From positions 758,501-822,500 of the forward strand of contig NZ_CP034683.1 of assembly GCF_003990335.1 (NCBI RefSeq): a stretch of DNA of 64,000 nucleotides. Reading direction: 5' to 3'. Below, in pieces: positions 17,152-59,627 of the stretch. Origin of the DNA: Rheinheimera mangrovi (lineage in GTDB: Bacteria; Pseudomonadota; Gammaproteobacteria; Enterobacterales; Alteromonadaceae). How positions within the stretch are numbered: the stretch's first letter is position 1; every line of letters starts with the position of its first letter. Made by a program: the position numbers and the translations under genes. The notes under the pieces are model-generated. The model was not told the DNA's origin. It was given only the letters and a program-made list of their open reading frames with translations, and ran no database searches.

Positions 17152-17276
17152 TACCCAAAGTAATTGGAGTTGCAGCGAGGCGACAAGAGCCTTTGACCTC
17201 AGGAGCATAGTTTACCTATGTGACTGGGGCTAAAGCGCGCAGTCAACAAAGCTGCAGCTCCAAGTACGAAGGGTAT
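17152..17276 (+). repeat. ERIC/IRU-like palindromic repeat, copy 1
   Basis: About 125 bases run from TACCCAAAGTAATTGGAGTT to AAGTACGAAGGGTA. The centre, CTCAGGAGCATAG..CTATGTGACTGGGG, matches the layout of the enterobacterial ERIC core. The ends are complementary (TACCC/GGGTA). The same element recurs at 33.6, 42.8, 50.0, 53.4 and 57.6 kb in this window. Confidence 0.85.
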
Positions 17277-33586: not shown

Positions 33587-33713
33587 TTTAACCAAAGTAG
33601 TTGAAGTTGCGGCGAGGCGGCAAGTGGGTGAGACCCCGGGAGCATAGCTGTCTATGTGACCGGGGCGAGAACGCTTAGCCAACAAAGCTGCAGCTTTAAA
33701 TACGCAGGTTAAA
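33587..33713 (+). repeat. ERIC/IRU-like repeat, full copy 2
   Basis: 127 bases from TTTAACCAAAGTAGTTGAAG to TACGCAGGTTAAA. The ends are a perfect 7-bp inverted repeat (TTTAACC/GGTTAAA), and the core CCCCGGGAGCATAG..CTATGTGACCGGGG is present. The length equals that of enterobacterial ERIC. Confidence 0.87.
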
Positions 33714-53298: not shown

Positions 53299-53376
53299 TG
53301 TTGGTTTTAATTCGGGTTAGAGTAATATTTTGGGGGGCAGGTTTTTAAGGGTGTAAGCTTGCCCTCGCTTTGATGT

Positions 53377-53501
53377 TTACCCTAAGTAATTGGAGTTGTG
53401 GCAAGGCGGCAAGCAAGTGAGACCCTGGGAGCATAGTTGTCTATGCGACTAGGGCGAGTGAGCGCAGCCAACGCCGCTACAGCTTCAAGAACGACGGGTA
53501 A
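53377..53501 (+). repeat. ERIC/IRU-like repeat, full copy 3
   Basis: 125 bases from TTACCCTAAGTAATTGGAGT to AACGACGGGTAA. The core GACCCTGGGAGCATAG..CTATGCGACTAGGG is kept. It lies 64 bases upstream of the STAND/TPR gene and may affect its transcript. The gap 53260-53564 contains only this and the rpmE terminator. Confidence 0.85.
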
Positions 53502-53564
53502 CAAATCAGTGCTTTCATAATGCAGCTCACAACTATATATTAAACATATAGTTAACTTCTGGCT

Positions 53565-56500
53565 GTGGTTATGATTGGTACTTTCTTTTTTGGCGAGTGG
53601 CAGGTAGACCCCAGTGCCAATACGCTGAGGCTTGGCAAACAGCTGATCCAGCTTGAACCTAAAGCTATGGATGTGCTGGTGTTGTTATGCCAAAACGCCG
53701 GAGAAGTACTAAGCAGCGACGAGATTGTCAGCATTTGCTGGCCTCAGGCTGAAGTGGGCGATAACCCGCTGCATAAAATTATCACCCAAATTCGTAAAGC
53801 TCTTGGCGACAGCGCTACTTCCTCTACTTATATTGAAACCATTCGTAAACGTGGTTACCGCACTTTAGCTCAGGTCACTTTCCCGCTGGGGCAGGAACAG
53901 AGCGCCACACCTCAAAGCTGGCAGGGCGGTTCACCTTTTCCGGGTTTACAGGCTTACGATGCCCGTTATGCCAAAGTGTTTTTTGGCCGTGGCAGTCAAA
54001 TTGACACCTTATTGGAACGTATAGCGCAGCAAGTGCAATACGGCAGAGCCTTTTGTTTAGTCTTAGGCCCAAGCGGCAGCGGTAAATCCTCGTTAATTAA
54101 TGCCGGCGTAATGCCAAATCTGATGCAAAACAGCGGCTACAACGGCGTTAAAGTGGAGTCGTACAGCAGTCTGGATTTAGCTGATCTGACACCTGGCCAA
54201 TTATTGATGCAGCTGGCCAGTGCTTTGCTCGACTGGGACCTTGCAGACCAGCCCGTATTTGACGGCTGCAGTGCTGAGCAGCTCGCAGACAAATTACAGC
54301 ATCAAATGGACTGGGTGCTGCAAAGCTGTAAAAAAGCGCTTCAAAATCATAGCCAAAACGAAAGCAAATGCCGTTTTGCCATTTTTATCGACCGGCTTGA
54401 AGTGCTGTTGTCTTCGCCGCTGTTTAGCGAAGAAGAAAGGTTGCAGTTTATCGACCGGATGGAACAACTGGCCACTTCAGGTTTAGTGCTGGTACTAAGT
54501 GCCTGTCGTAACGAGTTTTACCCTTTATTGGTTACCTATCCCAGTTTGATGGCAGGCAAAGCCCGTGGTGCGCATTTTGACTTAGCACCGCCCGGCAGAG
54601 CCGAACTTTTACAAATGATCCGCTTACCCGCCATAGCCGCCAATTTAAGCTGGGATTTAGATCCAAACACCGCAGTACCACTGGATGAGTTGTTATGCAG
54701 CGAAGCGGCCAGCAACCCCGATGCTTTACCTATGCTGCAATACACCTTGCAGGAATTGTATTTACAGCGCAGCGACAGCAATCAACTGCTGTTTTCTGTC
54801 TATAAAAATTTAGGTGGTATTGAAGGTGCTATAGGTAAAAATGCCGAGCAGGCCATAGCCCAGTTAAGTACAGCAGAAAAAGACAGCTTACCCCGGGTGC
54901 TCTCCTTACTGGTGACGTTACGCGAAGACGAACAGTCCATCACCAGCCGCACTGCACTCTGGCAACAATTACAAAATGACGCTGAACGTACTTTGGTACA
55001 AGCCATGGTGGAGCATCGTTTATTTGTCTCCCACCTGCAAAACGCTGTGCCTTGTTTTAGTGTGGCACACGAAGCTTTATTAAGGCGCTGGCCAAGAGCC
55101 ACAGCCTGGATAGCAGAACATCATCAAAGTTTAAGTGTAAAAAGCCGCTTGCAGCATTTAACCAAACGCTGGCTGGCCGAAGATAAACACAGCGCTTATT
55201 TATTGGCCGACGGCAAACCTTTAGCCGAAGCCCAGCAGTTAGCGCAAAATGGCTTTTTTACGCTGGATTCCAACGAACAAGCTTTTATTTTGGCCTCAGG
55301 CAAAAGATCCAAATTAGTACGCACCAGCAGGCGCTTAACTTTTGCCTTACTCTGTGTGCTGACTTTTACTGCTGTATTAATGAGCTTCAGAAGTTTTGAA
55401 GCGGAAAAACTGGCGCAGCAAAAACGTTTGGCGGCCGAAAGTTTATTAGGTTTTATGGTGGGTGATTTTGCCGACAAATTGCGCAGCATAGGCCGGATGG
55501 ATTTACTGGACGGTATCAGCAATAAAGCGCTGGAGTATTTCAGCGACTTTTCTGATGCGGAAAAAGATCAGTACCTAAGCACCCAGGCCCGCTTGCAACA
55601 TGGCCAAACGCTGGAAGCTATGGGCGAAGTGGCGTATTCACGTGACAAAATTGATGAAGCCAAAACCGCTTTATTAGCAGCCAGAGAAAAACTGACACCA
55701 GTACTTAGTGAGCAACCAGATAATTTAGAACTGCTAAAAACCTTAGGCGCCAATGCCTTTTGGTTAGGGCAAATTCAGTACGATGCCAATAACTGGTTAG
55801 AGGCCAAACCAGAACTTGAGCTGTATTACAGCTATAGCCAGGCTATGTACAAAATAGCGCCAGACAGTGTAGATGCCCTCATGGAGTTATCTTACGCTAC
55901 TAATTCATTAGGCTCTTTGGCGATGAAATTGCAAGAGTTTGAGCAAGCCACAGCTTTTTTTGATGAGTCGCTTAATCTTAAATTATTAGCAAAAGCTAAA
56001 GATCCTACCAATACCGCTTTGATTGCAGATATAGCAGATACCCGATCTTGGCTAGCTAGTGCTGCATTATCTGAAGGGAATGCAAATAAGGCTATCTCCG
56101 TGCATTTGCAGATACAGTCTGAATTTGAAAAAATGAATATTAGAGCTAAATCAGATGCTTACATGTTGGATAAAGTATTTAACAGCTATTCTAATCTTGC
56201 TGTTATTAATGACTATCAGGGATTAACCATGCAAGCTTTTGAGCTATTACATCAGGCTCACCGCATGCTGGAACAAGTGATTAAACAGGATCCCGACAAC
56301 AAAGTATGGCAACGTAGTTCATTTCACTACAAAGTTCTGTTAATGAGATTGAATGCGAAGCTACGTGACTCGCGTATCAACTATACCCCTGATTTATTGC
56401 TGCATGAGCTTCTCAAAATGAAAGGGGACTATGGTAGTGAACAAGACTATCTGAGGATCTATAGTAACTTATTACTTGAGTCCGCCCGTTATTATCAGGC

Positions 56501-56840
56501 AATAAGTCAATCACAGAAAAGCACAGACTTTACATCTCAGGCATTAGTTTTGTATCAGGAGTTCTATGCTGCTGAACCCGGTAATCCAAGATTAGTGCTT
56601 GCATTAGCTGAAACTGAACTGCTGCAGGCTAGGCATTACAGGACACAATTACAACATGATAAAAGCAAGCAATCCTGCGCCAAGGTAAAGAGCCTACTGG
56701 AACCTTTGCAGCAAAAAGATAAAAAGCCTCACTATATCCAACCTTATGCTTTAGCTTTAACCTGCCTTAATGAGCTGGATCAACACCCTGAGTTGCAAAA
56801 GCTTTTACAGAAATCGAATATCGTACTCAGTGCTTTCTAA
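53565..56840 (+). CDS. Winged-helix / STAND ATPase / TM / TPR signalling protein
   Basis: A 1091-residue protein with four parts. (1) Residues about 4-105: OmpR/CadC-type winged helix (LEPKAMDVLVLLCQNAGEVLS, IRKRGYRTL). (2) About 120-580: an nSTAND1-like NTPase opened by FPGLQAYDARYAKVFFGR, with Walker A GPSGSGKSSLINAG near 168 and Walker B-like FAIFIDRLEVL near 271; FSVAHEALLRRWPRA closes it. (3) One helix, about 590-608. (4) A C-terminal helical repeat region of TPR type to the end. The membrane helix puts the DNA-binding and ATPase domains inside and the TPR part in the periplasm. No function is established. GTG 53565 or ATG 53571 could start it; neither has a good ribosome site. The last third is more AT-rich. 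Confidence 0.82.
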   Translation: MVMIGTFFFGEWQVDPSANTLRLGKQLIQLEPKAMDVLVLLCQNAGEVLSSDEIVSICWPQAEVGDNPLHKIITQIRKALGDSATSSTYIETIRKRGYRTLAQVTFPLGQEQSATPQSWQGGSPFPGLQAYDARYAKVFFGRGSQIDTLLERIAQQVQYGRAFCLVLGPSGSGKSSLINAGVMPNLMQNSGYNGVKVESYSSLDLADLTPGQLLMQLASALLDWDLADQPVFDGCSAEQLADKLQHQMDWVLQSCKKALQNHSQNESKCRFAIFIDRLEVLLSSPLFSEEERLQFIDRMEQLATSGLVLVLSACRNEFYPLLVTYPSLMAGKARGAHFDLAPPGRAELLQMIRLPAIAANLSWDLDPNTAVPLDELLCSEAASNPDALPMLQYTLQELYLQRSDSNQLLFSVYKNLGGIEGAIGKNAEQAIAQLSTAEKDSLPRVLSLLVTLREDEQSITSRTALWQQLQNDAERTLVQAMVEHRLFVSHLQNAVPCFSVAHEALLRRWPRATAWIAEHHQSLSVKSRLQHLTKRWLAEDKHSAYLLADGKPLAEAQQLAQNGFFTLDSNEQAFILASGKRSKLVRTSRRLTFALLCVLTFTAVLMSFRSFEAEKLAQQKRLAAESLLGFMVGDFADKLRSIGRMDLLDGISNKALEYFSDFSDAEKDQYLSTQARLQHGQTLEAMGEVAYSRDKIDEAKTALLAAREKLTPVLSEQPDNLELLKTLGANAFWLGQIQYDANNWLEAKPELELYYSYSQAMYKIAPDSVDALMELSYATNSLGSLAMKLQEFEQATAFFDESLNLKLLAKAKDPTNTALIADIADTRSWLASAALSEGNANKAISVHLQIQSEFEKMNIRAKSDAYMLDKVFNSYSNLAVINDYQGLTMQAFELLHQAHRMLEQVIKQDPDNKVWQRSSFHYKVLLMRLNAKLRDSRINYTPDLLLHELLKMKGDYGSEQDYLRIYSNLLLESARYYQAISQSQKSTDFTSQALVLYQEFYAAEPGNPRLVLALAETELLQARHYRTQLQHDKSKQSCAKVKSLLEPLQQKDKKPHYIQPYALALTCLNELDQHPELQKLLQKSNIVLSAF

Positions 56841-56874
56841 AATTTTGTTCTTTAACCCAAACCAAGGAAAACTT

Positions 56875-57261
56875 ATGAACGCTACAACTTTAATTCAGGG
56901 CCCTATTATTGACGTCATGATTACGCTGGATGTTAATCAAGAACCTAAAGTCACTTATCTGCAGGATGGTGCAGTTTGCACTGGCAATGTGGTCGTGACT
57001 TGTGGAGAAAATATTACCTACAGACTGGTTAATTCTGCTGGTTATGCTTTTATGGGTGCTGGTTTTTTAACCCCTTATGACCAAATTATCGATGCGGTGC
57101 AGGTTTCAGCTGATGGTCAGGAGCTGGTACTGGTTGATGAAGACAGTGTAGTTGGTACAACAAAATTCCAGCTGATTTTCACTAATACAACCAATAGCTT
57201 GTTGTTATTAAGCCCTGACCCGCAAATAGTAAATAGAGATGTGGTACCTCCTAAGTCTTAG
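56875..57261 (+). CDS. Small beta-rich protein paired with the STAND/TPR gene
   Basis: A 128-residue protein lacking a signal peptide or helix. It is predicted to be mostly beta strands, with two Cys (AVCTGNVVVTCG) and a conserved tail SPDPQIVNRDVVPPKS. It may belong to the small proteins annotated as DP-EP family in Alteromonadales; that is from memory, not a search. AAGGA precedes ATG 56875, 34 bases after the STAND/TPR stop, so it is co-transcribed. The function is unknown. A broken relative lies downstream. Confidence 0.7.
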   Translation: MNATTLIQGPIIDVMITLDVNQEPKVTYLQDGAVCTGNVVVTCGENITYRLVNSAGYAFMGAGFLTPYDQIIDAVQVSADGQELVLVDEDSVVGTTKFQLIFTNTTNSLLLLSPDPQIVNRDVVPPKS

Positions 57262-57290
57262 TACTTATAGCAATTAGTAACTCTTAATCT

Positions 57291-57313
57291 AAAAGCCCCA
57301 ATCGGGGCTTTTT
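57291..57313 (+). terminator. Terminator after the small beta-rich protein gene
   Basis: AAAAGCCCC/GGGGCTTTTT with loop AATC. It closes the STAND/TPR operon. A very similar hairpin follows the downstream pseudogene. Confidence 0.9.
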
Positions 57314-57434
57314 CAGCGTTAAAAAAGCCATAACTTAAACTATCCCCAATTTTCTATTGTGTATTCCCTGTCCCGCTATTAGTATGGAGCCAGATTTGTC
57401 CCCATCTTAACCCTTTCAATTAAAAGGAATTAGC

Positions 57435-58319
57435 GTGAAAAAAACGACTTTACTTTTTACTGCTTTATTAGCAGCAGCGCCATTTTTCAGTCAGGCCGCC
57501 ACCCAACAAGAAATTGATCTGGCACTTGCCCCTGTAAAAACCAATGCTGATTTGCAGTAGCTGTTAAATTCCGCTTCGCCTTTATACCCGTCGCACTTGA
57601 AGCTGCGGCTTTGTTGACTGCGCCATCTCGCCCCAGTCGCATAGGTAAGCTATGCTCCTGGAGGCTCACTGACTTGTCGCCTCTCCGCAACTCCAAGTTT
57701 CTTGGGTAAAGATGCACTGGAACAGCATGTATTTCAGTTTGTCAGCAGTGTGAAGTTTTCGAAAAAACACCAGCAAATCAGCTTTGATAAAGAGCTGCTG
57801 GAAACCAATTTGTCGGCCACTGAAATTTATAAAATTCTGGCGCTGTTTGGCCAATAAAGTAGCATCAGCCAGTATCAAAATGCGCTGATTATCACTGACA
57901 CCGACAAATTGTTATTAACAGGCTCCAGCTTGCCATTTTGTAATGCCGCCGACCCTATCGAAACCAGTGTCACCTTAGATAAAAATAAACAGGCGATATT
58001 TGGTTATGCCCAAAGTGGTGTAGTTTGTGACGGTAATGTCGAGCTGACTGAAAATACCACTATTACCTATGTGTTGGTGCCGGGCAAAAAATCGCCTAAA
58101 GGTTTACGTTTAATAGGCGCTGGTTTTACCAACCCTTTTGACGGTCATATAGAAAAAGTGACGGTAAGTAGCGACGGCCAAAGCATTCAGCTGGAGAATA
58201 ATATTGAAAACTCCGGTGTCAGCAAATACCAGTTTATCCTCGAGTCGGAAGAAAATGATTTGCTGCTGGTAAGCCCGGATCCGCAGATTGTAAACAAGGA
58301 AGATGTGCCACCTAAGTGA
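57435..58319 (+). pseudogene. Broken paralogue of the small beta-rich protein, interrupted by an ERIC-like repeat
   Basis: One frame starts at GTG 57435 with a signal peptide (MKKTTLLFTALLAAAPFFSQAA), then hits a stop at 57558. After the repeat at 57582-57710 the same frame resumes (KDALEQHVFQFVSSVKFSKK), meets another stop at 57855, and then reads on through a domain matching the upstream small protein (VCDGNVELTEN, GLRLIGAGFTNPFDG, LLLVSPDPQIVNKEDVPPK) to 58319. So an exported two-part protein was once encoded. The open stretch from 57909 lacks a credible start. Confidence 0.75.
57582..57710 (-). repeat. ERIC/IRU-like repeat, full copy 4, inside the pseudogene
   Basis: Inverted relative to copies 1-3. 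It runs from TTTATACCCGTCGCACTTGA to CCAAGTTTCTTGGGTAAA, with the core CGCCCCAGTCGCATAGG..CTATGCTCCTGGAGG. It interrupts a frame that is continuous on either side. Confidence 0.87.
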
Positions 58320-58574: not shown

Positions 58575-59627
58575 ATGGAGCACAGACCTATGACTGGTTC
58601 AGCACAAACTAAAAGATTATATTTAACTTCTGCACCTGTAAGTGAAGCGAATGGCAGTAGTGCCGAGTTAAACCCTTCACTTTATAATCGCAACGATGTA
58701 AGCCGGATCGATTTTTCTGGTGCTGGTGGTTATGCGGTCCCTCATCTTGAGTCTTTACCTGCTTTGATTGAGTACTTGTCTGAAGCTGTATTAGTGGTCA
58801 ATTCCAGCGGCACTATAGTGTGTATCAACAGCAAAGCAGCGCAGTTTTTGGGCCATACCCAGGGTGCATTACGGGGGCACTGCTGGCCGGACTTTTTAGT
58901 GAAACGCTATCAGCAGCATTACCACAGCCTGGTGGATATGGGCCGTCGGGGTTTATTGTCGCAGCAACAGTCGCCGGCTGAAATGGCCATTATTTGTGCT
59001 AATGGTGATGTCAAAGATATTGAGCTGTCGTTGTCCTATTTACCTTCAGACGACCCGCTGCTGGTGATAGTGATACGTGATTTATCCTCTTACAAAGCCG
59101 AGTGTTACAAGTTGCATACGCTGGCCTGCACCGACCCTTTAACAGCCTTGGCCAATCGCCGCCATTTTGAAGAAATGCTGCAACAATACTGGGACGAATG
59201 CAGTCGCAAACAGAGCCCTGTCAGTGTGCTGATTGTCGACGTCGATTATTTTAAACAGTTTAATGATCAATACGGTCATATTCAGGGCGACGAATGCCTG
59301 CGCCGTATTGCAGCTGCTATTTCGCTGGCTGTTCCCCGTGGTCAGGGTTTAGCGGCCCGTTATGGTGGTGAAGAGTTTGCATTGATTCTGCCTTACCACG
59401 ACGAAGCTATGGCCAAAGCCGTGGCATTAAGAGTGCAGCATTATGTCAGTCTGCTGAATTTTTGTGAGCAAGGCCTGTCGGAGGAGCTCGCTGTCACTGT
59501 CAGTCAGGGCTATGCCAGTGAAAGCAGCGGCCAGTTCCGCACTCCTTTTGCCATGTTATGTGCGGCCGATACGGCTTTGTATCGCGCTAAGGCAGAAGGA
59601 AGGAATTGTATTAGCGCTTGCTGCTAA
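58575..59627 (+). CDS. Cytoplasmic PAS-GGDEF diguanylate cyclase
   Basis: A 350-residue protein. After about 50 non-conserved residues comes a PAS domain (LPALIEYLSEAVLVVNSSGTI to VIRDLSSYK), then a GGDEF domain with DPLTALANRRHFEE, DVDYFKQFNDQYGH and the active-site YGGEEFAL, so it should make c-di-GMP. No RxxD inhibitory site precedes the signature. No membrane helix. ATG 58575 and ATG 58590 are both possible starts; the second has GGAG 9 bases upstream. Confidence 0.92.
   Translation: MEHRPMTGSAQTKRLYLTSAPVSEANGSSAELNPSLYNRNDVSRIDFSGAGGYAVPHLESLPALIEYLSEAVLVVNSSGTIVCINSKAAQFLGHTQGALRGHCWPDFLVKRYQQHYHSLVDMGRRGLLSQQQSPAEMAIICANGDVKDIELSLSYLPSDDPLLVIVIRDLSSYKAECYKLHTLACTDPLTALANRRHFEEMLQQYWDECSRKQSPVSVLIVDVDYFKQFNDQYGHIQGDECLRRIAAAISLAVPRGQGLAARYGGEEFALILPYHDEAMAKAVALRVQHYVSLLNFCEQGLSEELAVTVSQGYASESSGQFRTPFAMLCAADTALYRAKAEGRNCISACC

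Follow-up and report, generated by a model that had tools for sequence, protein, structure and literature searches.

Our analysis of a 64,000-nucleotide stretch of the Rheinheimera mangrovi genome (hereafter the window; host genome of 4.63 Mb) showed a clear and lasting partnership between three genes, encoding a membrane STAND regulator, a small protein of the DP-EP family (DUF1888, PF08985) and a PAS-GGDEF diguanylate cyclase. The domains of these proteins, the fixed pairing of the first two and the co-occurrence of all three are observed. We think there is about an even chance that they form an autoregulated, c-di-GMP-linked module in which DP-EP is the dedicated partner of the regulator. 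Taken singly, the DP-EP fold and regulators of the STAND and CadC-like kinds are known. We know of no fixed combination of a STAND regulator and DP-EP with a diguanylate cyclase, and found no paper on such a module in the mostly open-access literature searched. A reading made earlier from the sequence alone had proposed a membrane STAND sensor, which is partly supported by our results, and had grouped the STAND gene and the small protein with a broken exported paralogue of the latter. This three-piece set has to be redrawn: the interval then considered ended before the cyclase gene, which is the third regular member, while the paralogue is optional.

Table 1. Features of the module and its surroundings in the window
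Feature	Positions	Strand	Evidence
Promoter-like site TTCATA-16-TATATT before the STAND gene	53514..53541	+	Promoter scan, weak
Inverted repeat AACTATAT-7-ATATAGTT, candidate operator overlapping the -10 element	53531..53553	.	Aligned upstream regions
Membrane STAND regulator, 1,089 residues	53571..56840	+	ORF list, Pfam, aligned orthologues
ToxR/CadC-type winged helix (Trans_reg_C)	53643..53861	+	Pfam E 2.3e-17, residues 27-99
nSTAND1 NTPase, P-loop GPSGSGKS	53934..55190	+	Pfam E 2.7e-85, residues 124-542
Predicted membrane helix with a basic N-terminal flank	55332..55397	+	Hydropathy and flank charges
TPR superhelix	55581..56765	+	AlphaFold model, residues 671-1065; Pfam TPR models below cut-offs
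DP-EP (DUF1888) partner protein, 128 residues	56875..57261	+	PF08985 E 2.4e-23; SO1698 chains E 5.7e-28
Tail SPDPQIVN	57211..57234	+	SO1698 cut falls after this Asp; chain 3n55_A ends there
Broken exported DP-EP paralogue, optional member	57435..58319	+	Pfam, stops, repeat, relatives
PAS-GGDEF diguanylate cyclase	58575..59627	+	GGDEF E 3.6e-43, Diguanyl_cycl_sensor E 3.9e-42

The STAND gene lies in an open reading frame at 53565-56840, and the ATG at 53571, the start common to the aligned relatives, gives a protein of 1,089 residues. Pfam, hydropathy and an AlphaFold model agree with the proposal that a winged helix, an nSTAND1 ATPase, a single membrane helix and a TPR region are joined in one protein. 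The N-terminus is an OmpR-type winged helix of the ToxR/CadC class. The STAND domain lies between residues 120 and 580, as had been proposed, with the nSTAND1 profile match, the P-loop and the Walker B acid all present. The P-loop Gly and Lys and the Walker B Asp of FIDRLE are invariant among 38 aligned orthologues, and of 88 loci (108 before the removal of repeated STAND sequences) stricter patterns match 81 for Walker A and 77 for Walker B (the misses were not inspected). We infer that the protein is a ligand-driven ATP switch working through assembly. Its single hydrophobic stretch, at about residues 588-609, is preceded by more basic flanks (4.8 K+R and 0.6 D+E before vs 3.4 and 1.9 after). 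Ten-residue blocks between 671 and 1080, which include the modelled helix pairs, have pLDDT 80-97; the model does not fix the mutual placing of the domains, because its pTM is 0.47 and the blocks of 591-670 have pLDDT 46-65. The core domains keep 64-69% identity across loci, and the second half of the TPR region 26% on average. In Shewanella sp. HN-41 (L244:6727-9979) the STAND gene is split into two ORFs (363 and 779 residues) that overlap. In Alishewanella jeotgali (L218:7329-9962) a 2.6-kb element with two ORFs, which we take from its look to be an insertion sequence, truncates the STAND gene at its end and stands between it and DP-EP.

The pairing of the STAND gene with DP-EP is constant in the genomes analysed. 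PF08985 was found in 26/147 relatives, in 2/369 genomes of the class (both already counted) and in 35/394 genomes of the order (23 of them new), that is, in 49 distinct genomes, and all 49 have a STAND gene upstream of DP-EP on the same strand. In a scan of named genomes, partly overlapping with these 49, we recovered 55 loci from Rheinheimera, Arsukibacterium, Alishewanella, Shewanella and related bacteria, with the STAND gene upstream in all 55 and the cyclase downstream in 54; in the remaining one the contig ends about 1.7 kb past DP-EP. The small protein is thus not one that occurs mostly without the STAND gene. Conversely, full-length STAND orthologues (E 1e-226 or better) occur in 28/147 relatives, and an ORF with the Asp-Pro tail lies next to each of them, which answers a check suggested in the sequence-only reading. 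Two of these 28 partners, in G067 and G074, fall under the Pfam cut-off (0.045 and 3.3e-5), and their scores with our own DP-EP profile are not independent, since it was built with both included. The pairing extends to far relatives. The same profile picks up, where Pfam has no match, a 148-residue ORF ending in SSDPEVVNDGSIV in Niveispirillum (3.4e-5), with no cyclase within the stretch compared, and a partner ORF ending in LLSDPQIINRPG in G1069 (3.9e-14); an ORF with CDPQVV in G510 was spotted by eye only. Six genomes have more distant STAND relatives, which align over their first 490 to 680 residues at 32-35% identity, and these genomes gave no PF08985 match.

The third gene encodes a diguanylate cyclase with an intact GG(D/E)EF motif (GGDEF domain, 147.6 bits). 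Its orthologues have GGEEF in 79/79 cases, and a pattern search found the RxxD site in none of the 79. The PAS domain matches PDB 3mfx (E 6e-20), presumably SO_1695 of Shewanella oneidensis, close in number to SO1698, a solved relative of DP-EP. Cyclase orthologues occur in 18 of 79 relatives, exactly those carrying the STAND-DP-EP pair; the weakest of the 18 has E 6.6e-56 and the next match 6.4e-40. Among 394 genomes of the order (two draws taken as the same), DP-EP is found in 35, a cyclase orthologue at E 1e-45 or better in 35, and both in 34. The exceptions are G636, which has DP-EP and a STAND protein at 26% identity without a cyclase orthologue, and G125, with a cyclase match of 1.4e-47 and no DP-EP. 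The cyclase lies within the compared stretch in 45/51 loci, window included; of the six genomes left, five have it elsewhere, about 5-24 kb away in four of them and on another contig in G085 (35% identity). It is convergent in 3/78 loci. Given these convergent and distant cases, the cyclase need not be co-transcribed with the pair. At one locus, a subtilase with a P-domain and an ORF2-chaperone-like gene sit between DP-EP and the cyclase (L203:10554-12804), and in four Shewanella loci (L200, L214, L221, L240) the ORFs in this place look to us like REP-associated transposases.

Might these genes merely keep a conserved order, without joint function? The same upstream neighbour, which we take by its look to be rpmE, is found in 8/10 Rheinheimera loci listed, as such an explanation would have it. 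Yet the upstream neighbours are quite different in other genera, two genera (g1 and g25) contain members with all genes of the module alongside members with none, and the cyclase is retained even where it has moved away from the pair. We therefore regard plain conservation of gene order as extremely unlikely.

The sequence-only reading placed the STAND gene, DP-EP and the paralogue in one transcript. This is plausible for the first two, DP-EP beginning 34 nt past the STAND stop, and doubtful for all three together: a perfect inverted repeat (57292-57311), which the terminator scan did not list, separates DP-EP from the paralogue. The region has no excess of promoter-like sites (8 vs 9.9 in shuffles). 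The candidate operator is a 23-bp inverted repeat whose core is unchanged in 11/11 aligned upstream regions, and the core pattern recurs at the loci of each of the 12 Rheinheimera carriers; we saw no counterpart in alignments of six further groups, some of them poor. Allowing up to 3 mismatches, the repeat occurs only once in the genome. An operator common to the STAND promoter and the cyclase was considered and rejected, the repeat being absent before the cyclase at that tolerance.

These observations bear on a rival account. Here the signal sensed by the STAND protein is unrelated to DP-EP, which is simply the target that it turns on and has a job other than sensing, in the way CadC controls cadBA. 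The winged helix of the CadC/ToxR type, the candidate operator at the shared promoter, the gap of at most 100 nt between the two genes on the same strand in 80/87 loci, and the lack of an evident signal peptide in DP-EP partners (a few are near the border by crude hydropathy) all speak for it. What speaks against it is how the proteins diverge. In 70 loci, DP-EP distances correlate with those of the two TPR halves (r 0.78 and 0.77), of the ATPase (0.71) and of the winged helix (0.63), whereas for cyclase distances the order is reversed (TPR halves 0.76 and 0.68, ATPase 0.81); the bootstrap difference is 0.126 (0.036-0.256). The partial correlations of DP-EP with the TPR halves are 0.54 and 0.49, against 0.05 with the winged helix. 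We consider a mere regulator and its target somewhat unlikely.

The tracking of DP-EP peaks at residues 801-880 (r 0.82) and is poor in windows of 881-1000 (r 0.51-0.59), possibly due to bad alignment. It hints that the TPR region may face the partner, bearing in mind that tracking of distances is not contact. Strong conservation within TPR pairs one to four is more frequent in helix A, the groove-lining helix of TPR proteins (26/80 positions vs 7/79, counted in the STAND family alone). The second half keeps two cysteines (70/70, and 69/70 with one gap), as would suit a disulfide outside the cytoplasm. By prediction the TPR region lies there, and DP-EP has no evident signal peptide, so that the two may not meet. 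How partner and sensor come together is the weakest point of the reading that we prefer.

DP-EP itself scores well above the curated PF08985 cut-off (83.2 bits against 25) and carries the Asp-Pro tail motif of the family. Its solved relatives are chains of SO1698 from S. oneidensis (PDB 3n55, 3njf to 3njn). The wild-type chain stops exactly at the Asp of S-P-D-P, and the D37A, S114A, D116A and P117A chains continue through the tail, which makes SPDPQIVN a self-cleavage site in this relative. According to a JBC paper of 2012, Asp116 reportedly can become linked to Lys98 after the cut, and the protein reportedly assembles with itself. The literature searched gave solved structures and a description of self-cleavage for the family and no biological role, and we know of none for SO1698. 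With Asn in place of Asp37 (Lys98 is kept), the window protein departs from the Asp37-dependent type of self-cleavage. Across 88 partners, which include close relatives and are thus not independent, the tail is nearly invariant (Asp116 in 87, Pro117 in 88, Ser114 in 86, Asn121 in 86), whereas Asp37 is found in only 36 and Lys98 in 46. These latter counts make self-cleavage unlikely as the shared function of the family; it is best read, from the residues kept, as a property that some members probably have, and the tail more likely serves folding or recognition. The one partner whose Asp is replaced, by Val, is in Arsukibacterium tuosuense (SPVPQVKN; L205:10001-10372).

The counts for Asp37 and Lys98 also weigh on the idea that DP-EP is an effector peptidase activated by the STAND protein. 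Other STAND proteins do act with trypsin- or caspase-like partners, and the PDB depositors title SO1698 'an aspartic peptidase', but Asp37 is present in only 36 and Lys98 in 46 of the 88 partners, and SO1698 is not known to cut anything but itself. We regard this idea as very unlikely. A portable role of the tail, as a tag, was also rejected. Among 6,892 ORFs in the collected sequences, the motif is present in 95 distinct tails, every one of which matches our own DP-EP profile, L203 through its tail. The L203 protein is an exported ORF2-chaperone-like one (PF18492 E 3e-6, below the cut-off) ending in SPDPQVVN. Its gene matches at the 3' end, in DNA, the corresponding end of the L241 DP-EP gene and the sequence behind it; a remnant of recombination is likelier.

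We infer a ligand role for DP-EP, a place where it meets the sensor, and an output, as follows. The STAND regulator would work like MalT, with the winged helix in the cytoplasm and the TPR sensor beyond the membrane helix. DP-EP would be a ligand or modulator of the TPR region, and its binding would alter the nucleotide state and assembly of the STAND core. This change would alter how the winged helix binds the candidate operator at the STAND-DP-EP promoter, resulting in autoregulation, and the cyclase would couple the same signal to c-di-GMP. A more specific version, which we put forward as a doubtful proposal, is that the TPR superhelix is the receptor for the C-terminal peptide of the neighbouring DP-EP (Pro-x-Val/Ile-x-Asn), taken up in the groove of the first TPR pairs and switching the STAND ATPase, with some lineages releasing the peptide by Asp-Pro self-cleavage.

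A STAND protein could instead detect an invader, as part of a conflict or defence system. The nSTAND1 domain is described in predicted conflict systems (PMC8195603, PMC10907252), the second TPR half is variable, and the presence of the module is patchy within genera. However, the core domains are well kept, the neighbour is a cyclase, and PADLOC matches are weak and cover the P-loop only (mad3 8.4e-5, mad8 0.018). Searching 72,556 plasmid and 50,697 phage records with the G038 DP-EP gave no match, though the same search also misses the Niveispirillum partner. A defence function thus seems highly improbable to us.

The exported paralogue was indeed broken, as first read: in-frame stops at 57558 and 57856 flank an interspersed repeat of 125 bp (57585-57709). 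Among the 12 carriers of the genus Rheinheimera, it is one open frame in four (G016, G015, G006, G009), two ORFs in G002 and broken in the window, and was not seen in the remaining six. We rejected it as a core part of the module; a second DP-EP match is present in just 13/87 loci, one of them a tail only. Full-length second copies show a signal peptide by crude hydropathy. The N-terminal half of the exported copy gave a weak structure model (mean pLDDT 71, 7 sequences), and clear PDB matches came from its DP-EP half only. The ~125-bp repeat has at least four copies in the window (17152-17276, 33587-33699, 53373-53500 and 57585-57709; 78-82% alike) and is also present in the Rheinheimera loci compared. 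One copy broke the paralogue, and another immediately precedes the STAND promoter.

The near-constant presence of a STAND receptor and a diguanylate cyclase beside DP-EP provides a testable role for this family. If the proposed module is correct, it would be a membrane-bound STAND switch in bacteria whose candidate protein partner has a solved fold, and it would open a new route to c-di-GMP control. The peptide version, if true, would be a Gram-negative membrane counterpart of the Rap and NprR TPR regulators, wired to c-di-GMP.

Among known systems, SO1698 is of the same family as the window DP-EP, with the same tail and the Lys98 position in common; changing its Asp37 to Ala leaves the chain uncut, and the window protein has Asn there. 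The nSTAND1 core is shared with predicted conflict systems, whereas Pfam lists no effector-associated domain in the window protein, its neighbour is a cyclase and its core is well conserved. Rap and NprR are cytoplasmic and are not known to have a STAND domain. Their sequence identity to the window TPR region is 8-12%, and TPR folds of unrelated proteins score as high; towards a peptide-binding groove like theirs, the window family shows only the conserved helix-A positions. CadC and ToxR have a winged helix of the same class with a single membrane helix behind it; in the window protein the membrane helix is a predicted one, with an ATPase in between and a TPR superhelix as the putative outer part. 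Finally, MalT is a STAND transcription activator; the window protein has instead a ToxR/CadC winged helix, at the other end of the chain, and a membrane helix.
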